Shown in pieces: positions 4,428 to 30,621 of a stretch of DNA of 49,915 nucleotides. How positions within the stretch are numbered: the stretch's first letter is position 1; every line of letters starts with the position of its first letter. A program made the translations under genes and the position numbers. The DNA is from an uncultured Caryophanales bacterium (GTDB lineage Bacteria > Bacillota_I > Bacilli_A > RF39 > UBA660). Below the pieces are notes generated by a model. That model had not been told where the DNA came from and made no database searches. It saw nothing but the letters and a program-made list of their open reading frames with translations. The stretch is taken from the NCBI GenBank assembly GCA_946534345.1, contig CAMNCL010000007.1, positions 1-49,915 on the forward strand, in the 5' to 3' direction.

Positions 4428-4953
4428 ATACTATATAAATCTTTTCAAGATCTTTATTACTTTCTAAATCTTTAAGAGCAAAAACTCCATCTTCATAACA
4501 AATATAACTTTTTGTACTATCTTGTCTAGGTAGAGAAATACTTCCAGGATTTAGAATAATCTTATTATGATCTCTTTCTAGAACAGGTACATGGGTATGA
4601 CCTGTAATTAAAATATTATATGTAACATCTGGCAAATGATCTCTATTAAAGTAATGTCCATGAGTCATCAATATTGTTTTATTATCCATTGGAACAGTCT
4701 TATATAATTCATCCATCTTAAAATCTAATAATCGTAGATCATCCATATAATCACAGTTGCCTCTTACTGCGATTATTTTATCTTTATAACTATTCAATAA
4801 ATCAACTAATTTTTCTGGATTATAACCTTCTCTATTTGGTCCTGATAAGATATCTCCTACAAGAAATAAATAATCAAAAGATGGATCATTTTTTAGAACC
4901 TTTTCCATATTATTATAATTACCATGTATATCTGAAACTATTAATATTTTCAT
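4426..4953 (-). CDS. YfcE/MJ0936-type metallophosphoesterase
   Basis: This 175-residue protein is a single calcineurin-like phosphoesterase domain of the usual YfcE length. All metal-binding blocks are visible in order: SDIHGN near residue 7, VGD near 37, GNCD near 66, HGH near 97, GHTHVP near 118 and NPGS near 135. Members hydrolyse phosphodiesters with Mn or similar ions; the natural substrate is usually unknown. Its ATG follows the tex stop after one base and its ribosome-binding site GAGAGG lies inside the end of tex, so the two are translationally linked. Confidence 0.9.
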   Translation of the reverse strand: MKILIVSDIHGNYNNMEKVLKNDPSFDYLFLVGDILSGPNREGYNPEKLVDLLNSYKDKIIAVRGNCDYMDDLRLLDFKMDELYKTVPMDNKTILMTHGHYFNRDHLPDVTYNILITGHTHVPVLERDHNKIILNPGSISLPRQDSTKSYICYEDGVFALKDLESNKDLEKIYIV

Positions 4954-10754: not shown

Positions 10755-13700
10755 TTAATCCATTACTCTAACATATGGAATGTTGGAGTTCTCATTGTAT
10801 AAATATTGATCTGGATGCATATTATATTCACCTGGGAAAACATATTCATTAGTTGGTTCTAGAACAATTCTATCACTAAGGGAATCATATGAAGTTGTAT
10901 ATACTATATAGTATTCTTTAGTTTTTTCGACAAGTGTTTCTCCTGTTTCTTCATCTATATAGTTAAATGTCTCATATTTTTCTCTAGGGAAAGTATGCTT
11001 AGTTAATCCAATAGCTTTAGTCAAATATTTATTATCCGAACTACTGTTAGCATTATAGAAACAGTCTTTGAACGAACAATTAGCTGTATAATCTTCGACC
11101 TGTTCATTACCAGAGTCATCTCTTCCAATGCAGCTCTTACTTGGATTAAATTTATCTTTATAGAATAAACGCTTTTTATAATAAGCAAGGATTCCTGTAG
11201 TATCTTCTACAACTCCAGATAAATCTTCTTCTCCTGTCTCCTCACCCGGGTCCTCTTCCTCTTCATCTTCTTCATCAGAAGTTTTTGGAGCACCATAGTA
11301 ACATTGTCCACCTTTAGATCCACATCTTTTACCAGATATGGCAATATTATTAGGTTTAGTATTATCTAATGTGTATTCTGTTTTTTCAACAACACTTTCT
11401 GGACTTCGACACTCAACATATGGAGATGCAATAAATTCCATTCCTTCAGACTTATTGCCATGTGAATCTTCAACGAAAGCATAATAAACATCTTTGGTTA
11501 TTTTAGTATCACTTATATAATATAAATGCTCTGGCTCAACAAAATATACTAATCCTGACTTTTGATCAGTTCCATCAAACCCACTTCCATCTTGTTTACC
11601 AATAAAAGTACAAGTATTAACATCATCCACTTTTGTAACACATATTTTATAAGTATCATAGGCATCTCTTGCGATAATAGCTACTTTAATATAATTACCT
11701 GTAACTGTATTCCAAGGCCCTGTAACATAACCATTTAATGACATTGGTAATGTTGAATCTTCTTCAACTGCTTCTCCCATACCATTTTGATACGTAGCAT
11801 TTATATCATAAATAGTAGGAGCTTCATCGTTATGTATTTTATATGTAATAGCTTTTGATGTACTTGTAAGACCCAAACTGTTTCTTACAATAGAATAAAT
11901 TGTATATTCTTGACCATTATAGGATGGCGCATTAAAGTGAATTGGAAATTCTTCAGCATATGGTTTATATCCAGTACAAGTATAATTATCATTACTGTTA
12001 GCCCTCTTATAGCAAATATTAACTTCTAAGTTCACTGAATCTTCATATTCATCAACTGCCAACACTTTATATATAGCATCAACTGAATTATAATTCTTTC
12101 CTTCTGCTTCATCTCCCCTAAACTCTACATTTACATCAGATTGTATATTAGGATATAGTTCATCTCCTTCAGAAGCTTCACTTTCGGTAGCTTCTTTATC
12201 AAGTAACTGAGGAGGGTTTGCATTATACAAAGTATATTTCTTACTAACATGAGTAACTAATCCACCTGAGTCAAGAACAAATATATGAAGAGTTTTTGTT
12301 TCTCCTAAGTAAGGGTTCTGTTTTCCTTTGTTGAAAGTATATGTTTGATCTCCACTTAAATAATCTTTATATAATATATAATTCTTACTATTAGTATCTC
12401 TACAGTCAGATTCGTTTTCAGAAATACATATTTTCATATCACCCGAAACAAATTCACTTTCTTCATCATCGCCATCATCAGATATTTTATCAACGTCATC
12501 TAAAACTTCAAAAATAAGATTTACTTCAGCATTTTTATTTGAAATAATATTTCCTTCTGCATCTCTTTTAATAAATGGACATTTATAATTTGTTTCACAG
12601 TCAGATGCTGGAACAATATTAAAATCATTATCCTTTGTAGTTTGAGCACCTGATTCTCCGTCACCAACATCAACATAATAAATTTCAGGAGGTTTATTAG
12701 TATAGACTTCATACTCTACAGTTTTAGTTGCGGCTAGAGAATATTTATCATATACTTTGAAAATAATTTTTCTTTTTCCACCATCATACTCTCCGGCAAT
12801 TCTATATGGTATACCTTCAACGTTGTCATAATTTTCCAAACTTTTAATTTTTACATTTTCGTTATATCCTTCAGTCTCAATAGAATATTTCATCTCATTC
12901 ATATCTTCCATATCATCACTAGCATCCAAATAAATTCTTACATTCAAACTACTAGTCGCAGTGAATGATTCAAGATTAGATACTAAATCAAACTTATCTA
13001 TTGAAGGAGCTTTGTTTTTATAAACCTTATAAGTTTTATGATTTTCACTGTCTACTCCACTTGAAATACTATAGTTAGACTCACCATATGAGTCTTTTGC
13101 TATAACATAAAGGTTTCTAGTATTACCATCATATGTACCAGAAAAAGTATATTCATATCCTTCTTTATAGTTAGAATACTTTTTAAAGTTTGCCGAATTA
13201 TTACAATCAGCTTTGTTTTCTGACACACATACAAGAATTTTATCATCTACATCTTTGTAATCAATATCATCAAAAACATCAAAGTTCACTGTAGCATTAA
13301 GTTTACCTCCTGCTGTTTCAACTGGACATTTTTCAACATTCTTACAACCATAACCGTTACTAGTAATTGAAATATTTTTAACTCTTGGTGCTTTGTTTTT
13401 ATATACATTATATGTAATTGGAGTATAAGCAGTTTCATGATTGCATTCATCTATTAACGATACTGTTATATTTCTAGGTTTACCATCATATTCTCCACTT
13501 AATTTAAACATTATTCCTTCCTGGTTATATGGATATATTTCATTAGTAGATCCTTCGCGAATTCTAACTCTTAAATTAGAATCACTAGTCACATCATCAC
13601 TACCATTAACAACTACTCTAACATTTAAGCTATTAAAACTAGTCTCAGTAGATTGAATATCAACTGGTTTTTTAGAAGCAAATTTAGGAGCAGCATCTGT

Positions 13701-14948
13701 ATGTAGCTTATATGGCAAAGTTATTTCAGATGTAGCACCCAAACTATCTTTAGCAAATACTTTTAGTGAATATTCTTGGCCATTCAAAGCACACTTATTC
13801 TGATTAAATGTATGGTAAATATCCGATTTAATTAGCTCAGAATACTTTTCATATTTATCACATGTCTTAGCAGTATCAGTTACCTTTTCAGAATAACATA
13901 CTTGAATTTTATCATTAGTATCAATATCATCTGAAATAGCTAAATTTAGTAAAGCTGTTCCCATATTAACACTATCAACAGGTCTTCTTAATAGTTTTGT
14001 CTCTTCACCAAAAACAGGTGGTTCATTGGTATGAAGTTTATAGTCTAACTTCACCTTACCAGTATTTCCATCAGGATCTTTAACCACAATGTATAGTGTT
14101 ACATTAGGTTTTTTATAATAATCATATCCCATCTTATCAAATTCAAATTTCTTAATAAAGGTATTCTTATCTCCATATTTTTCTTTTATAGCAGCTGATT
14201 CATCATATTTTTTATCGGAAATATAAACTGATAAATCACTTAGAGCTGTATCTTTATCCTCAACAGTTAAACTAAGAGTTGTATCTAATGAATTAAATGG
14301 TTTTCCAGAAGTTGATCTCAATACAGCATTAATAATTTCTGGGCTAGCTAAACCTCCAATTGAAGCATCATCATCCATTGCTACATCATGATAAATATGC
14401 TCGATAGCACTAACATATTCAGGTTCAGCTTTTGAACCTAATTGATTATTAATATAATTAGTTTGTAAATTGTTTTTAACCCTTACTAACTCATTATTAC
14501 CTATATTTTTAACATACTTAGTTGAATTATAACTTTGAAGTGATTCACTTCTAATTAAAGGTATACCTATATAGCTACCATTTTTTAATTTTTCTACTAT
14601 TGCTACAGAATATTCTAGGTTCCCATTATCATTATTTTTTACCACAACATAAGAAGCATCTCTAACGTATTCACCTTCATTAGGAGAGGTTCTAAAATCA
14701 TTACCTGATAGATAAGCCATACTGACTATAATACAGTCTCCTTGATCTGGTTTTTCGATTGTACTATTTGCAGATTTTAATGTATATTCCACTTTTGAGA
14801 CTAGTTTTTTGGCATCATTAACATACATTTTTTGTTTATTCCTACTTACAGTACTAGTAAGTAGAGGAATTCCTAATCCAAACAGTATTCCTAGTATAAC
14901 GATTGTAGCCAATAATTCAATTAATGTAAATCCAATATTTTTTTTCAT
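10755..14948 (-). CDS. Giant pilin-like protein with seven extracellular repeats
   Basis: The 1397-residue product begins with a prepilin signal, KKNIGFTLIELLATIVILG (G|F cleavage, Glu at +5), then a hydrophobic helix. A pilin-like region of about 200 residues follows. After it come about seven modules of roughly 100-150 residues, each opening with a PP/AP boundary (NEPPVF, DAAPKF, NKAPRV, NKAPSI, NKPPEI, ANPPQL, DEAPTI). Most contain a conserved YTFSGxYDGxxR-type strand, often with CVSE and paired Cys, and a closing Y-x-(V/L)-Y/H strand. This resembles cadherin- or Ig-like stalks. An acidic Glu/Asp run (EEDEEEEDPGEETGEED) precedes a Cys-containing C-terminal part. It is the first gene of the operon; AAGGAG precedes the ATG. 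Confidence 0.78.
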   Translation of the reverse strand: MKKNIGFTLIELLATIVILGILFGLGIPLLTSTVSRNKQKMYVNDAKKLVSKVEYTLKSANSTIEKPDQGDCIIVSMAYLSGNDFRTSPNEGEYVRDASYVVVKNNDNGNLEYSVAIVEKLKNGSYIGIPLIRSESLQSYNSTKYVKNIGNNELVRVKNNLQTNYINNQLGSKAEPEYVSAIEHIYHDVAMDDDASIGGLASPEIINAVLRSTSGKPFNSLDTTLSLTVEDKDTALSDLSVYISDKKYDESAAIKEKYGDKNTFIKKFEFDKMGYDYYKKPNVTLYIVVKDPDGNTGKVKLDYKLHTNEPPVFGEETKLLRRPVDSVNMGTALLNLAISDDIDTNDKIQVCYSEKVTDTAKTCDKYEKYSELIKSDIYHTFNQNKCALNGQEYSLKVFAKDSLGATSEITLPYKLHTDAAPKFASKKPVDIQSTETSFNSLNVRVVVNGSDDVTSDSNLRVRIREGSTNEIYPYNQEGIMFKLSGEYDGKPRNITVSLIDECNHETAYTPITYNVYKNKAPRVKNISITSNGYGCKNVEKCPVETAGGKLNATVNFDVFDDIDYKDVDDKILVCVSENKADCNNSANFKKYSNYKEGYEYTFSGTYDGNTRNLYVIAKDSYGESNYSISSGVDSENHKTYKVYKNKAPSIDKFDLVSNLESFTATSSLNVRIYLDASDDMEDMNEMKYSIETEGYNENVKIKSLENYDNVEGIPYRIAGEYDGGKRKIIFKVYDKYSLAATKTVEYEVYTNKPPEIYYVDVGDGESGAQTTKDNDFNIVPASDCETNYKCPFIKRDAEGNIISNKNAEVNLIFEVLDDVDKISDDGDDEESEFVSGDMKICISENESDCRDTNSKNYILYKDYLSGDQTYTFNKGKQNPYLGETKTLHIFVLDSGGLVTHVSKKYTLYNANPPQLLDKEATESEASEGDELYPNIQSDVNVEFRGDEAEGKNYNSVDAIYKVLAVDEYEDSVNLEVNICYKRANSNDNYTCTGYKPYAEEFPIHFNAPSYNGQEYTIYSIVRNSLGLTSTSKAITYKIHNDEAPTIYDINATYQNGMGEAVEEDSTLPMSLNGYVTGPWNTVTGNYIKVAIIARDAYDTYKICVTKVDDVNTCTFIGKQDGSGFDGTDQKSGLVYFVEPEHLYYISDTKITKDVYYAFVEDSHGNKSEGMEFIASPYVECRSPESVVEKTEYTLDNTKPNNIAISGKRCGSKGGQCYYGAPKTSDEEDEEEEDPGEETGEEDLSGVVEDTTGILAYYKKRLFYKDKFNPSKSCIGRDDSGNEQVEDYTANCSFKDCFYNANSSSDNKYLTKAIGLTKHTFPREKYETFNYIDEETGETLVEKTKEYYIVYTTSYDSLSDRIVLEPTNEYVFPGEYNMHPDQYLYNENSNIPYVRVMD

Positions 14949-21724: not shown

Positions 21725-21752
21725 AAAAAAGATAGTTATTAATTAACTATCT
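21725..21752 (-). terminator. Terminator after the 924-residue gene
   Basis: AGATAGTTA and TAACTATCT are 9-bp arms around five bases, followed on the minus strand by a T-run. The TAG stop of the 21747 gene lies in the stem. The same stem recurs at 24548 and 27831. Confidence 0.85.
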
Positions 21753-24521
21753 ACTTCTACTTTTGTTTTCTTCACTATATTTTTTATATAAATCCTCTTC
21801 AATTTCATGTGTGATTTTTAGTAAATACTCAATATCAACAATCGCATTAAAATTATTATTAGTCGAATTGCCTCTTTTGTCATATAAATATACCTTGTCT
21901 TTTACAACATTTCCATCGTCATCTTTAACAATTTTAAATCTATAATGAAGATTTGAATTACGTAATTTATCTAAAAGATTGCTTTTTAAATTCACTGGTC
22001 TTCCATCTTCATTAAACCAAAATTGATTTATATAAGATTCGCTATCAAATTCAAAGCTATTATGATATTTAACAGTATCCAACAAACTAGAATCTATAAA
22101 ATCTAATGAATCAAAATTTACCTTATCAGCATCACCATTTTGCTTTTGATATTTTCTAAAGACACTATTACAATAAACTAACATTGCGATTAACTTAGGA
22201 TTATTTAATCCAAATATAGTCTTAGAAACATTAGCATTATAAGTCTTAAACATTTCATCAACCAAAGAAATATCACAACTAAAAAACTCAATTGGTAATT
22301 GTTCTAGTTTCTTATAATCATTATTACATAAATATAAAATGTACTTAAGATTTTCAAAGTTTATTACACAATTATCGGGATGATTATAAAACATATTATT
22401 ATATATTTTATAAGGCAGTTTATTCATATCGATATCATATAATTTACATTTTTTAAACGTTTCAATTATTTTTGATGTGTTTACATTAAGTATACAGAGA
22501 TTTGCCACATCAATACCTAGCTCATTTAACAAAAGTATTTTACCTTCTAAAGAATCTTTATATGAGGAATTATAATTTGCAAGATTAACAACATCTATTC
22601 CCATTTTTGCAAGTCTTATAGTAGTTTCTGGATATTCAAATAAATGATACGAATTATAATCTTCTAACTCACTTAAATTGATTAAGCTACATATTTCAAT
22701 CGTTTTTTTAGGATCAGTATATGCATAATATTTTCCTTTTCTATCAATTTCTGCTATATCAATACCATGTTTAAATAATTCTATTGCTTCTTCGGGGTGA
22801 CTAAAAGCATATGAAATATTAGGAGAAGTTATATCAATTCCAGCTTTATACAGTTTTATTACATTATCAACATAGTTAAAAGCATGATGATTAATATCCA
22901 TAATTGTAATTCCTTTTTTTTCCAATTCACTTTTTAAAGCATTATTCAATCTAATTATATTATCAGCTTCTTCGAACTCATCTTCTTCAAGTGCATATAT
23001 GTTGATACCATTATCTAGTAATTTTATTGTTTCTGAAGGAAAATTAAAAGCATCAAAATTCAAATCATCTATCTTTATCCTTTTATCGAGCAACTCAGTT
23101 GTAGCGTCTATATTATGGTAAGCATCAAACATCAAGTCTTCACAATAGCCAGTCTTTTGATATAAGTCCCAGGCCTCTTGATAATCGCTAAATGCATAAT
23201 CAAATTTTGTAATATCAAAGCCCTTATCTTTTAAAAATATAACTCCTTCAGGGTGATAGAACGCTCCATCCATTAAGCCCTCTATTTTTATACCTGTATT
23301 AAGTAATTTTCTTGTCTCTTCTTCATATACTAGGGCTTCGTTATTCAAATTATTAAAGTCGATCCCCAATTTACACAATTCCATTGAAAAATCAAAATGA
23401 TCAATTGTAGTATTAAAGATATTATTAGGCTCAACACCTGTATCTATTAATTCTATAACTTTGTCTATATAATCAGGTTTATTATTGCACCAACTTAAAC
23501 ACCTAATTCTATTGATGGTTTTTAAATCAAGTCCACGCTTTAAGAATTCTCTTCCTGCAGCTTCATTAGATAAAACATTACTGAATTCAGATAGTCTAAC
23601 ATAATTATAATCTGTTTTCTCTAAAATATATTCTAACCAATCAGGACTTACATTATAAAAAACACTATCAGCTTGACGAATGTCACTCCCTAATTTATTA
23701 ATAATCGGTAATGCTATCGAATTTACTCTTTCAATAATAATTTTATCTTCATCGTTAGCAACTATCCTACCTTTATTGAAGCCATCTAAATAATCAACTG
23801 GTATAGAAAGTTTAAAATCTTCACTGTCAATATCAATTATAGAACCTTCTTTTGCAATACCATGGCCAATATTATTACGCAGTTTATGAACAATATTTAT
23901 AGATTGCTTTAGTATTTTTGTTGCTTCCATTTTTTCTATTTCATCATTAGAATTTTCTAATTTAACCCAATCTATTTTATAAAAGGTATCTATTACATTT
24001 TTGTAATTAGCATCAAAGCACCTAGTTGCTAAATTCTCAAGATTCCTAAAATCACCAAATGACGGTAATCTATTCATAGTTCCAGTATAATTTACATTTT
24101 TTTGCAACCATTCAAATATTTCTTTTTTCTTTACAGCAAGTTTATTATTTATATTTGCATGATCTGCTCCAGGTAGTGTATGTTCAGCAGCACAGTTACT
24201 ATATTCATTATAAAGTTTCTTCAATTCATCTAACATTGTTCTTTTAGCAGATTCATAATCTTTTCTTAAACAGTCATTTTCTTTTATATATTCACCTAAA
24301 AAAACAACATTCCAAATATCATTAATATTTTTTAAATTGAACAATAATTTATTATTTTCTTTTCGTATGATTAATTCTTTTTTCTTAATAAAATTAGATA
24401 TTATTTCTCTATAATATTCATTATTATTAAGGAATGATTCTCTACCATATAATATGTCACCTGCTTCTTCCATACTAGGTGCATCAACTACTTTTTTTAC
24501 CACATCATATAATTCAGACAT
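21747..24521 (-). CDS. Double RNxxxH (HEPN-like) solenoid protein, paralogue A
   Basis: No named family is recognised. The 924-residue soluble protein has a helical N-terminal domain ending in KLRNNIGHG (R215-H220) followed by a beta segment and helix. The middle (about 300-700) carries about twelve repeats close to 24 residues, each with a hydrophobic pattern like FPSETIKLLDNGINI and often ending AF. A C-terminal domain contains LDKLRNSNLH (about R854-H859), a beta hairpin (KVYLYDK) and a helix. R-N-x3-H is the catalytic motif of HEPN ribonucleases, so two HEPN-like domains flank a helical solenoid. RNase activity is inference. It is paralogous along its length to the next gene upstream and lies between fmt and rlmN. 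GGAGGTGATAG precedes the ATG. Confidence 0.7.
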   Translation of the reverse strand: MSELYDVVKKVVDAPSMEEAGDILYGRESFLNNNEYYREIISNFIKKKELIIRKENNKLLFNLKNINDIWNVVFLGEYIKENDCLRKDYESAKRTMLDELKKLYNEYSNCAAEHTLPGADHANINNKLAVKKKEIFEWLQKNVNYTGTMNRLPSFGDFRNLENLATRCFDANYKNVIDTFYKIDWVKLENSNDEIEKMEATKILKQSINIVHKLRNNIGHGIAKEGSIIDIDSEDFKLSIPVDYLDGFNKGRIVANDEDKIIIERVNSIALPIINKLGSDIRQADSVFYNVSPDWLEYILEKTDYNYVRLSEFSNVLSNEAAGREFLKRGLDLKTINRIRCLSWCNNKPDYIDKVIELIDTGVEPNNIFNTTIDHFDFSMELCKLGIDFNNLNNEALVYEEETRKLLNTGIKIEGLMDGAFYHPEGVIFLKDKGFDITKFDYAFSDYQEAWDLYQKTGYCEDLMFDAYHNIDATTELLDKRIKIDDLNFDAFNFPSETIKLLDNGINIYALEEDEFEEADNIIRLNNALKSELEKKGITIMDINHHAFNYVDNVIKLYKAGIDITSPNISYAFSHPEEAIELFKHGIDIAEIDRKGKYYAYTDPKKTIEICSLINLSELEDYNSYHLFEYPETTIRLAKMGIDVVNLANYNSSYKDSLEGKILLLNELGIDVANLCILNVNTSKIIETFKKCKLYDIDMNKLPYKIYNNMFYNHPDNCVINFENLKYILYLCNNDYKKLEQLPIEFFSCDISLVDEMFKTYNANVSKTIFGLNNPKLIAMLVYCNSVFRKYQKQNGDADKVNFDSLDFIDSSLLDTVKYHNSFEFDSESYINQFWFNEDGRPVNLKSNLLDKLRNSNLHYRFKIVKDDDGNVVKDKVYLYDKRGNSTNNNFNAIVDIEYLLKITHEIEEDLYKKYSEENKSRSR

Positions 24522-24547
24522 TCTATCACCTCCTATATAGTATCAAT

Positions 24548-24568
24548 GATAGTTATTAATTAACTATC
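24548..24568 (-). terminator. Hairpin between the two HEPN-like paralogues
   Basis: GATAGTTA-TTAAT-TAACTATC repeats the stem found at 21730 and 27831. The T-run after it on the minus strand is poor, so it may only partly terminate and may pass transcripts into the 21747 gene. Confidence 0.6.
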
Positions 24569-24572
24569 TTTC

Positions 24573-27500
24573 TTATTTAGATTGTGTAGTTTCTTCCTCT
24601 ACAGCACTACTAGATTCTTTATTAACATCATCCATCATTTCTTGGATACCATAGTTTAATGATGTTTCTACTAATCTAGCAAATTCTAATAAATAATTAA
24701 TATCTAAAATAATATTAAAATTAGTATCTTGTGACATATTTTCATTCTTATCATATAAATGGATTTTATTTGGTACAACATTACCTTGATTATCATACAC
24801 AGGTTCAATTCTAAAATGAATAGCTGCGTTTCTAATCTTATCTAAAATATTTGCTTTGACATTAATATACCTACCATTATTAATATCACCAGCTACTCTA
24901 ATTTCACCATTATTATGTAAAACAAATTGTTCAATATACTTTTCTTTGTCCATGTTTATATCAGTAATATTATTTTTATAATCCATTGTATCGTTATAAG
25001 CATTTTGAATAAATTTAATAGGATTAAAATCAATTTTATCAAAATCTTCATCTTGATAGTTTTTAAAAACATTATTGCAATAAATTAAAAGGCCTATTAC
25101 TTTAGAATCATTAATATGAAAAATACTTTTAGCTACATTCAAATTATAAATCTTACATAAGTCTTCTATTTTTGATAAATCACAAGCAAAAAATTCTTGA
25201 GGGAACTCTCCTAATCTACTATAATCATTATCCACTAAGTTTAGTAAATATTTGATATTATCAATATGCAAATCTATCTTATAATAATTAATAACATCTG
25301 TTGGTAATTTGAATAAATCTATATTCTCATCCTTAAACAAATTATAAATGCGAATACACTCTTCTGCATCAAGGAAATATATTTTATTCAAATCTTCTAC
25401 TTTTAAACCTTCTTCTAATAATCTAGTGCTTTTTTCGTAATCTTCTAGCGCTAATTCTTTCATTTTATTTACTTCATCAAACGGCAACCCAATAGATAAA
25501 AAATATAAAAATTCTTTAGGATGTCTAATAGCTTTATTTGATAACTTAACTAATTCTTTAACTGACAAATTGCTCTTCAAAAAAATCCTCATCTCTTCCT
25601 GAAGAAAAAATGCTTCTTCTGATAATCTTTTAATATCATCAAATTTAAAGCCTTTTTTGATTAAGTCGATTACTAATCCTGTAGGTTCAAATACATATTC
25701 AGGTAGTTTCTCAATATCTTCTAATGAATAATGATTATCTAATAAGTCAAATACTATTTTAGGATTTACAATTGCTCTAACTGGTAAATTACTAATTTCT
25801 TCGACAGAAAATTTCTTTAATAATTCTTTTACTTGTTTTGTATTTGACACTTCTTCTTTTGGTAGATATCCTACGTAATCGTCACCACTTAAATAATAAT
25901 CAAAGTCTTTTTCAAAAAAAGCATCTTCTGGTAATTGGAGTATTTCATCCATAGACCTTCCTTTTTCTAGTAGTTCTTCAACTAATTTAGTATTTAAAAA
26001 TGCTCCATCAGGTAAACTGGCAATTTCATCAATCGACATTTTTTTCTTTACCACATAATCTCTTACTATAGAATCTTCCAGCTTATAAACTGGTAACTTC
26101 GTTATTTCGTCTATAGTTATCCCTTTTTTTAACAATTCTTCATATCTATAATAGTCGTCAAAAACACCATCTGGAAGTTGAGACACGCTTTGAATTGCTT
26201 CATCAAGCAAACGCATACATTCATCATAATTGTTAAATACTTTAGGTGGCAACTGTCTTATTTGATTTATTAACAATATATTTAAATTACCATAATATTT
26301 TAACTTTTTTATATCAATATCTTTTAATTCTTCTGGAGGTAATTCTTGTATTTTAGAAAGACTTATTTGTTTGTTTAAATCTATTTTTTCTAATTCTCTA
26401 TTTAAAAAAGTAAATAGTACCCAAGGTTTTTCAAATGCTTTATCATTCAGTTTTGAGGCGTCTGATATTGTTAAACCCCCACGCAACATGCGAATAAATC
26501 CATCGGGATTTTCAATTGCTCCTGGAGGTAATTCTTTTATAGTTTGTATAGATAGTCCTAAATTATATAATTTGATTCCATTTTGTGTACAACAATTCTT
26601 ATCCGAAATAATTTGTACTAGAATATTTCTAGGTAACCCTTTAGATATAATATCTTTATACCAATTTGAAAAGAAGAAATCTCGGTTTGCTATTAAATTT
26701 AAATCAGCAACTGTTAAACCAGCTTTTAAAAACTCAGAAGTTTTATCAGGAAAACGGAAGGCTTCGTACGGCATTTCTTTAAGTTCCTCAAAACTTATGC
26801 CACATTTATCGAGAAAAAACCTCGATTCAGCGCTGTTCTCAATTATATCTTTATTTAACTTATAGAGTTCATTATAATTATTATTAACTTGTTCTAAAAG
26901 ATAATTTAACCACTCTGGTCTTACATGATGAAAGAAACTCTGTAACTCTATCATATTATAATTCAAAGACTTTAAGATTGGAGAAGCAACGCTATTAGTT
27001 TTTTCAACGATGTTCTTATCTTCTTCTCTAGGTATTATTTTACCTTTACTATAACCATCAATATATTCAATAGGAATTGATACTTTAAAATTTTTACTAT
27101 CAACACTAAGTGTTTTAGCTTCAGAAATCATACCATGTCCAATAGCATTTCTAAATTTATGAATAATAGTAATAGCCTGTTTTAAAGAATTGACTGCATC
27201 TAAATTATTAATTTGATTAGAAGATGTACCTAAATCTACCCAATCAATTTTATAGAAAGTTTCTATAACTCCTCTATATTTTTTGTCTAATAATTCTTCT
27301 ATGAAAGATTCTAGTTTACTAAAATATGCTAATGATTTTGGAAAAGACTTTTCACTTTCATCATAACCAAGTTCTTGTGCTAAAAAATCTTTTATTTCTT
27401 GCAGTTTTTTTTGACGCAATTTATTTATTTCTTCATGATCAGCACCAGGTACTCTATTTAAAGCTATAATACTAGAATATTGATTGTATAATTCATGTAC

Positions 27501-27803
27501 TTTGTCAATAATATCTTTTTTTACTGTTTCGTATTCTTTGTTTAAAGTATCATGCTCTTTTATATATTCTCCTAAAAATATTGTATTCCAAATATCCACA
27601 GCAGAATCTAAATCAAATATTAACTTACCATGAGCATTCTTTATAGTTAATTCTTTTTTTTGAATAAATGTAGAAACTAAATTTTGATAATACTCTTTAC
27701 TATTACTAATGATAATGCCATTCTCACCATATAGTAATTCATCTGCCTCTTCCATACTAGAGGCATCTACTACTCTTTTTACTACATCGTATAATTCAGA
27801 CAT
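24573..27803 (-). CDS. Double RNxxxH (HEPN-like) solenoid protein, paralogue B
   Basis: This 1076-residue paralogue of the 21747 product shares its N-terminus (MSELYDVVK-VVDA-SMEEA), an RNAIGHG motif (R218-H223), and a C-terminal LDKIRNAAIH motif (about R991-H996) with a following beta hairpin (KIHLYDK). The middle (about 330-880) has about thirteen repeats with a period of 27 residues, typified by a PK/PE start, LL-KG, a D/E-(D/E)-I and LPxxAF end. Paralogue A uses about 24. Both HEPN-like motifs keep Arg, Asn and His, which argues for retained activity. The C-terminal tail is acidic (EEETTQSK). AGGTGATAA precedes the ATG. Ribonuclease function and a defence role are inference. Confidence 0.7.
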   Translation of the reverse strand: MSELYDVVKRVVDASSMEEADELLYGENGIIISNSKEYYQNLVSTFIQKKELTIKNAHGKLIFDLDSAVDIWNTIFLGEYIKEHDTLNKEYETVKKDIIDKVHELYNQYSSIIALNRVPGADHEEINKLRQKKLQEIKDFLAQELGYDESEKSFPKSLAYFSKLESFIEELLDKKYRGVIETFYKIDWVDLGTSSNQINNLDAVNSLKQAITIIHKFRNAIGHGMISEAKTLSVDSKNFKVSIPIEYIDGYSKGKIIPREEDKNIVEKTNSVASPILKSLNYNMIELQSFFHHVRPEWLNYLLEQVNNNYNELYKLNKDIIENSAESRFFLDKCGISFEELKEMPYEAFRFPDKTSEFLKAGLTVADLNLIANRDFFFSNWYKDIISKGLPRNILVQIISDKNCCTQNGIKLYNLGLSIQTIKELPPGAIENPDGFIRMLRGGLTISDASKLNDKAFEKPWVLFTFLNRELEKIDLNKQISLSKIQELPPEELKDIDIKKLKYYGNLNILLINQIRQLPPKVFNNYDECMRLLDEAIQSVSQLPDGVFDDYYRYEELLKKGITIDEITKLPVYKLEDSIVRDYVVKKKMSIDEIASLPDGAFLNTKLVEELLEKGRSMDEILQLPEDAFFEKDFDYYLSGDDYVGYLPKEEVSNTKQVKELLKKFSVEEISNLPVRAIVNPKIVFDLLDNHYSLEDIEKLPEYVFEPTGLVIDLIKKGFKFDDIKRLSEEAFFLQEEMRIFLKSNLSVKELVKLSNKAIRHPKEFLYFLSIGLPFDEVNKMKELALEDYEKSTRLLEEGLKVEDLNKIYFLDAEECIRIYNLFKDENIDLFKLPTDVINYYKIDLHIDNIKYLLNLVDNDYSRLGEFPQEFFACDLSKIEDLCKIYNLNVAKSIFHINDSKVIGLLIYCNNVFKNYQDEDFDKIDFNPIKFIQNAYNDTMDYKNNITDINMDKEKYIEQFVLHNNGEIRVAGDINNGRYINVKANILDKIRNAAIHFRIEPVYDNQGNVVPNKIHLYDKNENMSQDTNFNIILDINYLLEFARLVETSLNYGIQEMMDDVNKESSSAVEEETTQSK

Positions 27804-27830: not shown

Positions 27831-27851
27831 GATAGTTATTTTTTAACTATC
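27831..27851 (-). terminator. Terminator after the 228-residue gene
   Basis: GATAGTTA-TTTTT-TAACTATC is followed by TTTT on the minus strand. The stop of the 27836 gene lies in the stem. It is the third copy of this stem and bounds the HEPN-like gene pair on its upstream side. Confidence 0.75.
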
Positions 27852-28522
27852 TCTTCTATTTCTCCAAATTTATCATATGAAAGATTTATTTCTAATTTAT
27901 CTTTACAATTACTATCATATTCACAATAACTATCTAAGTGATATGTTATTTCATTAACTATACTATCTTCATCACTATTAATAATTATATTATTAGGAAC
28001 TTCATCTATATCAGTTTCTTTATTATTAATTAGACTATTAATAGTATTACTAGATATTAAGAAACTATATTTAGTAATACCACTTCTATAATCTGTTTTA
28101 TAGTCTAACATGGCATTTTCAATTAATAATGAAGTATTATTAAAATTAATAAAATCAGAATAAATATATGGATTATCTACTTCTTTATTATCTAAATAAT
28201 ACTTATTTCCATCATAGTAATAAGTTTTATTATTTAAAGTAAATAATTCATTATTACCATCTCTGTCTCCTTCATAAACATATTTAATATTATCTTTTGT
28301 AATAGTATATATAAAATGATAATTACCACCAACTATAGGAGCAGTATTAAAGAATGCTTCTTCTCCTACTTCATAATCTTTCTCAACATAACCAGTTTTT
28401 TTAGAGAAAGAAAGCACAATAAATAGAATTAAAAAAACAATAAAGTAAAAAGCGAAGAAAAGAATTCCTTTTCCTCTAGGAGTTTTACGTAATTCTTTAA
28501 TTAATTCTATAAACTGTTTCAT
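27836..28522 (-). CDS. Bitopic membrane protein after fmt
   Basis: The 228-residue protein has a basic N-terminus (about 1-18, PRGKG), one transmembrane helix (about 20-40, FFAFYFIVFLILFIVL) and an extracytoplasmic domain of about 185 residues rich in Tyr/Asn/Asp with two Cys near the end (SYCEYDSNCK). No family is recognised. It overlaps fmt by ATGA, so it is translated with it. The domain looks like a beta-rich lipoprotein-like fold, but nothing catalytic is visible. Confidence 0.7.
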   Translation of the reverse strand: MKQFIELIKELRKTPRGKGILFFAFYFIVFLILFIVLSFSKKTGYVEKDYEVGEEAFFNTAPIVGGNYHFIYTITKDNIKYVYEGDRDGNNELFTLNNKTYYYDGNKYYLDNKEVDNPYIYSDFINFNNTSLLIENAMLDYKTDYRSGITKYSFLISSNTINSLINNKETDIDEVPNNIIINSDEDSIVNEITYHLDSYCEYDSNCKDKLEINLSYDKFGEIEEIVKK

Positions 28523-29445: not shown

Positions 29446-30621
29446 CTATATCCCTCTTATAACCATAAATATTGTCACAATAACCCCTAATGTTATTAAT
29501 AATGATCCAGCTATTAAAAGAATAGAAACACTACCATAAGTATCCATAAATTCTTTATTTTCTTGTTCTAAACGGTATTTATCAAATTGTTCCTCATACT
29601 CTTTATCAAAATCATCATCAGTCTTTTCATAATAAGTATCTAAAGTAATAATTTCTAACTTATCACTTGGAATAGTATTAGAACACTCAATCTTATTCTT
29701 CTTAGAGCTAAGTAATCTATCAACTACATCATATAAGTCTTCATCACTATTAATATATTCACTTAAAGAAATCTTATCTTTTGATATTTCATCTCTTTTA
29801 ACTAATAATAAACTAATCTTCTTATCTTCTCTATGTAATAAATCCCATTCATCTTTTACTAAGTCTAAAATAAACTTCTTATCATCTTCTTTAAACAAAT
29901 TATTATCCATAAACCTTTTCAAACGACTAATCGTAAGATTATAGTCATCTATCAAATAACCATCTTGTTTCTGTAATCTACCAAAATAATCTTCACTCTT
30001 TAGAAACTTAGAAAAGAAATTAGGACCATATGTAGAGTAATAACAAGCCATTAAGAAATTATCAGTAAAAGTAACTTCTTTTTTAGTAAAATCTTTATCG
30101 ATTATATTAATTACATTGTATTTTGCAAATATCTTATTTAGTTTAGAGAATTTATCATAATAGTTTTGATATTCTTCTGGATTAAATCCTTTTTCTAATA
30201 TTTCTTTAGTATAACTTGTATTAAATCCATGAATATAATAACCATCCACTATATATTTATCATATACATATTCAATAATTTCTCTTCTAGAATCAATATC
30301 TTGTTCATCTTTTATATCTAACTTTATAGTTAATAGTTTACATAATAACTTATTTATCCCTACTTCTATATCATCAAAGTTATCTATTCTTTTATATAAT
30401 CTATCTAATTGAATCATATATTCATCAAACATATAGACATCTTCAAATAATAATTGAAATTTATATAGAGATTCATAGAAAATATAAAGTGCTAGTTCTT
30501 TGCCTACAGTTATTTTTCGATCTGCAATCTTCTTGAATTCTTTATCAAAATAACGATCATTATTTTTTAATATTTTAATAAAACTATTTACGTCTTCTCT
30601 TTTTAATAGTTCTTCAAGCAC
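29446..30621 (-). CDS. Tail-anchored protein, possible ADP-ribosyltransferase-like core
   Basis: The 391-residue product is soluble and Lys/Asp-rich except for a C-terminal transmembrane helix (about 367-387, SILLIAGSLLITLGVIVTIFMV), so it looks tail-anchored, facing the cytoplasm. Near residues 143-160 it reads YYIHGFNTSYTKEILEKGF; H-G/T followed by a helix ending IL-x-GF resembles the opening of DarT/PARP-type ADP-ribosyltransferases. A later FTDNFLMACYYSTYGPNF could match the next core strand and helix, but a catalytic Glu is not assignable. This is weak similarity by eye. It abuts fmt without a gap. Confidence 0.55.
   Translation of the reverse strand: MLEELLKREDVNSFIKILKNNDRYFDKEFKKIADRKITVGKELALYIFYESLYKFQLLFEDVYMFDEYMIQLDRLYKRIDNFDDIEVGINKLLCKLLTIKLDIKDEQDIDSRREIIEYVYDKYIVDGYYIHGFNTSYTKEILEKGFNPEEYQNYYDKFSKLNKIFAKYNVINIIDKDFTKKEVTFTDNFLMACYYSTYGPNFFSKFLKSEDYFGRLQKQDGYLIDDYNLTISRLKRFMDNNLFKEDDKKFILDLVKDEWDLLHREDKKISLLLVKRDEISKDKISLSEYINSDEDLYDVVDRLLSSKKNKIECSNTIPSDKLEIITLDTYYEKTDDDFDKEYEEQFDKYRLEQENKEFMDTYGSVSILLIAGSLLITLGVIVTIFMVIRGI

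Follow-up and report, generated by a model that had tools for sequence, protein, structure and literature searches.

An uncultured, gut-type Caryophanales bacterium has two neighbouring genes for large solenoid proteins, each of which carries an RNx3H motif near either end. We propose that each of these proteins is a stand-alone sensor-RNase, encoded by an inserted mobile gene and probably active in phage defence, and give this reading a probability of roughly 45%. Both genes lie on the minus strand of the window, by which we mean the whole stretch of 49,915 nucleotides that was analysed. Gene 1 (24573..27803) encodes 1076 aa (P0002) and gene 2 (21747..24521) encodes 924 aa (P0001); the two open reading frames listed in an earlier note on this DNA were confirmed. 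The proteins share 45-47% identity at both ends and 20% in the middle.

RNx3H motifs at both protein ends

Rx4-6H is the catalytic motif of HEPN ribonucleases. As the earlier note had described, both paralogues carry RNx3H near their ends, and each protein contains exactly two such motifs and none elsewhere in its sequence. In gene 1 these are R218-N-A-I-G-H223 (27135..27152, minus strand) and R991-N-A-A-I-H996 (24816..24833, minus strand), in gene 2 R215-N-N-I-G-H220 (23862..23879, minus strand) and R854-N-S-N-L-H859 (21945..21962, minus strand). Composition-preserving shuffles produced 0.03-0.05 RNx3H motifs per protein, and at least two in 0.04-0.06% of cases. Conservation is the stronger test. 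Arg, Asn and His of both motifs were invariant in all six homologues from five species (12/12 motifs kept), at an overall identity to the 924-aa protein of 33-41%. The homologue search named as a check in the earlier note therefore found Arg and His in every homologue, and its observation that four motifs persist in strongly diverged paralogues, with a middle of about 20% identity, was borne out. Moreover, Rx4-6H with a polar residue after the Arg, which is the HEPN criterion, was found in the N-terminal as well as the C-terminal domain of all six proteins. The beta stretch and helix previously noted behind each motif appeared in the models as a hairpin and a helix, although the N-terminal one was of low confidence.

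The C-terminal HEPN domain

The C-terminal domain covers 24576..25265 in gene 1 and 21750..22364 in gene 2, both on the minus strand. The curated Pfam cut-off of PF18736 is 26.6 bits, which was exceeded at the C-terminus of the homologues L028 (29.7 bits) and L030 (26.9 bits) and just missed by L027 (24.3 bits). The 1076-aa window protein scored below the cut-off (E 0.0006 with the whole protein) and the 924-aa protein had no PF18736 match of its own. Membership thus applies to the family of homologues, whereas the window proteins by themselves do not reach it. The C-terminal domain of the 924-aa protein was assigned to HEPN because of its homology to the 1076-aa protein, L030 and L028, with 45-51% identity to the first two. 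Besides, its RNSNLH aligns directly with RNSVAH, the motif of the PF18736 namesake, the pEK499 HEPN nuclease. Going by profiles and alignment, the C-terminal domain is a HEPN domain. Matches of this domain to a patatin-like protein and a histidyl-tRNA synthetase were judged to be chance.

A putative HEPN domain at the N-terminus

The N-terminal domain (26895..27803 in gene 1 and 23622..24521 in gene 2, both on the minus strand) is probably a HEPN domain, too. This assignment is based on the conserved motif, on an order of helix, RNx3H, hairpin and helix which resembles that of the C-terminal domain, and on a weak profile similarity, with one of six members matching PF18736 weakly at E 0.027. 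Another explanation confines the HEPN RNase to the C-terminal domain and takes the N-terminal one for a different helical domain consisting of a coiled-coil hairpin and a small motif region. It would then oligomerise or inhibit, and its RNx3H would serve something else. We consider this doubtful. In its favour, the N-terminal domain had, beyond this weak match, none in any family library searched. An AlphaFold model of one homologue's domain (pLDDT 54.9, pTM 0.42, below 50 in the motif region) is ruled by a long helical hairpin of residues 66-152, unlike the compact HEPN fold, and at this low confidence the hairpin also dominates structural comparison. However, HK-x-RN-x3-H is invariant in 6/6 proteins, with a domain identity of 38-47% outside the close pair, and a hairpin and a helix are predicted behind it, as is the case at the C-terminus. 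The profile score between the N-terminal and the C-terminal domain was 28.5 against a maximum of 24.0 in 300 column shuffles, but this similarity vanished once the motif columns were masked, and a comparison over whole domains detected none.

Foldseek and VIA-align listed no HEPN chain for the low-quality models, which is uninformative at such model quality. Similarly, the full-length AlphaFold model of the 924-aa protein (pLDDT 62, pTM 0.31) does not allow domain placement or a dimer groove to be read. The earlier note had suggested that two HEPN domains clamp the repeat domain. The C-terminal HEPN domain stands, whereas the N-terminal one is only suggested and the clamp is not shown, as the structure models are too weak to reveal a HEPN dimer groove.

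Insertion site and neighbouring genes

Across most of the genus, fmt is followed by a gene for a membrane protein of about 228 aa and then by rlmN. The genomes G027 and G014 represent the empty site, where the gap before rlmN measures about 60 bases without an insert. In the window 6 kb with both solenoid genes splits this otherwise conserved order. The palindrome GATAGTT-N7-AACTATC is confined to this locus in the 1.29-Mb genome, where it occurs three times: one copy separates the 228-aa gene from gene 1 (27831..27851), a second lies between gene 1 and gene 2 (24548..24568), and a third between gene 2 and rlmN, overlapping the end of gene 2 (21731..21751). In G027 and G014, the empty site has one palindrome of this kind. 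In L030 a single solenoid gene lies on the opposite flank of the membrane protein gene and is preceded by a palindrome whose arms are identical and whose loop is longer. The palindrome resembles the terminator of the 228-aa gene, and so the simplest interpretation is that a terminator was copied when the insertion or a duplication took place; a function as recombination site is possible. The first 91 nt of the two window copies are 86% identical. Nevertheless, a recent tandem duplication was rejected because the copies are over both ends about as distant from each other as from L030, which belongs to another genus. Trees of the window copies and the homologues did not resolve.

The 228-aa protein itself (27836-28522) has no family match. 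Of the 39 genomes of the genus 35 contain it, and its gene adjoins fmt in all loci examined; it is a conserved unnamed membrane protein of the lineage. The interval between its gene and rlmN holds differing genes by species (loci L040, L043, L044, L045, L057 and L061), among them those for a deaminase-like protein and prepilin-like large proteins, and therefore may be an insertion hotspot. Two further window proteins were noticed. A 391-aa protein (29446-30621) encoded between priA and fmt matched no family and has a membrane segment at its C-terminus, and a similar-looking gene occupies the same place in L030 (7907-8974). A 1397-aa protein (10755-14948) combines a type IV prepilin-like N-terminus (GFTLIELL) with a very long extracellular-looking part.

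Distribution and probable gene transfer

The homologues are 924-1140 aa long and rare. The family was found in 3/39 genomes of the genus, in 3/386 of the GTDB-family sample and, in the class sample, in the window's own genome only (1/395). A scan of 84,980 species genomes, which uses short peptide patterns that distant relatives can escape, yielded four loci, all from uncultured Bacilli, of which two came from the gut of sheep and goats. No homologue was detected in the phage, plasmid and viral-contig collections.

The kinship of the solenoid genes is at odds with that of rlmN. The rlmN of G027 is 91% identical to that of the window and 63% identical to that of G556, whereas its solenoid gene shares 70-84% by region with G556 and about 20-46% by region with the window. 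This incongruence points to gene transfer among related gut Bacilli, with the proviso that the genomes are metagenome-assembled and a misbinned contig would mimic such a signal. The L027 homologue is flanked by perfect 21-base direct repeats, TTGCCCCTCTAACTTGATTGT, at 1522-1542 and 4738-4758 of its locus, 3.2 kb apart. This repeat was absent from viral contigs and from the other fetched loci except those of the same genome. No recombinase gene was found in the inserts of the window, L030 and L027 or between the L027 repeats.

It is conceivable that the proteins are RNases with a role outside defence, for instance the toxin of a toxin-antitoxin system, a regulator of stress or translation, or a factor in RNA processing linked to fmt, rlmN and the kinase gene. 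The window and L030 copies indeed lie within this translation and signalling operon, and many HEPN proteins serve toxin-antitoxin systems or RNA processing (PMC3710099). However, we think this explanation unlikely, as the operon lacks solenoid genes in most of the genus, the remaining homologues sit at other genomic places without a conserved partner gene, and the genes are patchily distributed and show signs of transfer. Known defence systems were not found beside the window genes or most of their relatives; the neighbours of L028 matched PADLOC WYL, DUF1848 and a candidate PDC-M42C model, a weak sign of defence. The window proteins themselves had no match to the PADLOC-DB defence-system models at E up to 1. 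As the genes stand alone among housekeeping genes, defence-island searches can overlook them.

An acidic and variable solenoid

Between the motif domains lies a solenoid, at 25266..26894 in gene 1 and, according to repeat profile and model, at 22365..23621 in gene 2 (both on the minus strand). Its repeats comprise about 24-27 residues, with a period of 24 (27-28 in places) and the strongest period in gene 1 at 27. A repeat profile, trained on the same six proteins on which it was run, recorded 34 sites after one round and 50 finally, where shuffling expects 0.1. In L030 the 24-residue repeats are in near-perfect register with the consensus G-I-D-I-Y-x-L-P-x-x-A-F-x-x-P-E-x-T-I-K-L-L-K-x, and in L027 and L028 they are degenerate. 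In the model of the 924-aa protein each repeat is predicted to form two helices, one short and one longer (pLDDT 84-90 around residues 321-410). The helical repeat domain which had been proposed between the motifs is in agreement with these 24-residue repeats and their predicted helix-helix units. The repeat unit had no Pfam match, and when solved structures were searched with profiles, nothing beyond leucine-rich repeats and chance matches turned up. A leucine-rich repeat identity does not fit the all-helical prediction for these repeats and was discarded, and a helicase and a sigma-like factor were judged to be chance matches.

The solenoid carries a net charge of -16 to -34 and is acidic in all six proteins, which favours a protein over RNA as its ligand. 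That it recognises RNA or DNA in the manner of mTERF or TAL and thereby guides cleavage is therefore highly improbable, as the mTERF and TAL chains that recur among the weak structural matches reach Z scores (3.9-4.5) which are commonplace for repeat folds.

In the closest pair, L027 and L028, dN/dS was 0.12 in the N-terminal domain, 0.26 in the solenoid and 0.10 in the C-terminal domain, and identity was 82%, 70% and 84%, respectively. This pair is under purifying selection. Such a pattern would be expected if a variable module for binding lay between effector ends under constraint, and the faster evolution of the solenoid is consistent with a sensing role of the repeat domain. It may also come from relaxed constraint; no positive selection was demonstrated.

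Proposed mechanism

Metal-independent RNase activity is a trait of the HEPN superfamily, and the RNx3H motif suggests that the proteins described here cleave RNA. From the rarity of the genes, their movement and the fast-evolving middle we infer a role in defence. The variable acidic solenoid would bind a target, most probably a protein, for example a part of a phage. This would bring the HEPN domains into an active dimer, either within one chain or between chains, whereupon the RNx3H sites would cut RNA and growth of the infected cell would stop. Such genes may move among related gut Bacilli as small inserts, and the window would contain a pair of old, diverged copies next to each other, whose targets plausibly differ.

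Comparison with known systems

The presence of two motif-bearing ends in one long chain resembles Cas13 (PMC12165695). In a tentative version of our model both end domains would be HEPN domains that pair within one chain as in Cas13, giving a guide-free RNase gated by a solenoid that grips a protein. Just as tentatively, the proteins might be seen as a Cas13 equivalent that responds to a protein trigger, has exchangeable specificity and resides on a small mobile insert. In contrast to Cas13, the motifs lie at the outermost ends of a tandem-repeat solenoid and there is no evidence of a guide RNA. No CRISPR array was found in the window or in L027-L029, and the matches in L030 fall within a protein-repeat gene; a CRISPR link was rejected on this lack of an array in the loci read. 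In a structural survey, twelve unstudied clusters with intramolecular HEPN pairs were described, two of which became Cas13an (PMC12165695).

HEPN domains fused or linked to TPR/Sel1/HEAT-type repeats have been reported for LA2681, AbiU2 and AbiJ (PMC3710099). These share a HEPN domain and a helical repeat module with the window proteins, which differ in having a 24-residue repeat without Pfam match and the motif at both ends. In the openly licensed literature searched, no report was found of a repeat solenoid flanked on both sides by HEPN-type motifs. The order of motif, repeat and motif, for which the earlier note knew of no named family, was likewise absent from the family libraries searched. 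If our reading is true, it would represent a new single-protein immune-sensor architecture for HEPN, in which a fast repeat module lies between two RNase-type ends, and an addition from uncultured gut Bacilli, a lineage whose defence is little known.

The pEK499_p136-like HEPN nucleases (PF18736) share the C-terminal helix, RNx3H, hairpin and last helix. However, they are small proteins of about 166 aa, whereas here the domain ends a protein of 924-1140 aa with a solenoid and a second motif domain. RNase activity can be missing from a HEPN domain whose motif is intact, which has been described for AbiA (PMC11077055). An analogue with the RNx3H motif is Tha of staphylococcal prophages, a single-gene HEPN RNase (RNSIMH) that is activated by a phage tail protein (PMC11087260). 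Similar to the window proteins, Tha is encoded by a single gene and has a C-terminal HEPN domain with RNx3H and an N-terminal part without an assigned domain (PMC11087260). It differs in its length of 301 aa, its one HEPN domain and the lack of a reported repeat solenoid, and the likeness drawn here is one of motif and description. By this analogy, the best-supported view is that the window proteins would work like Tha, with a larger and changeable sensor.
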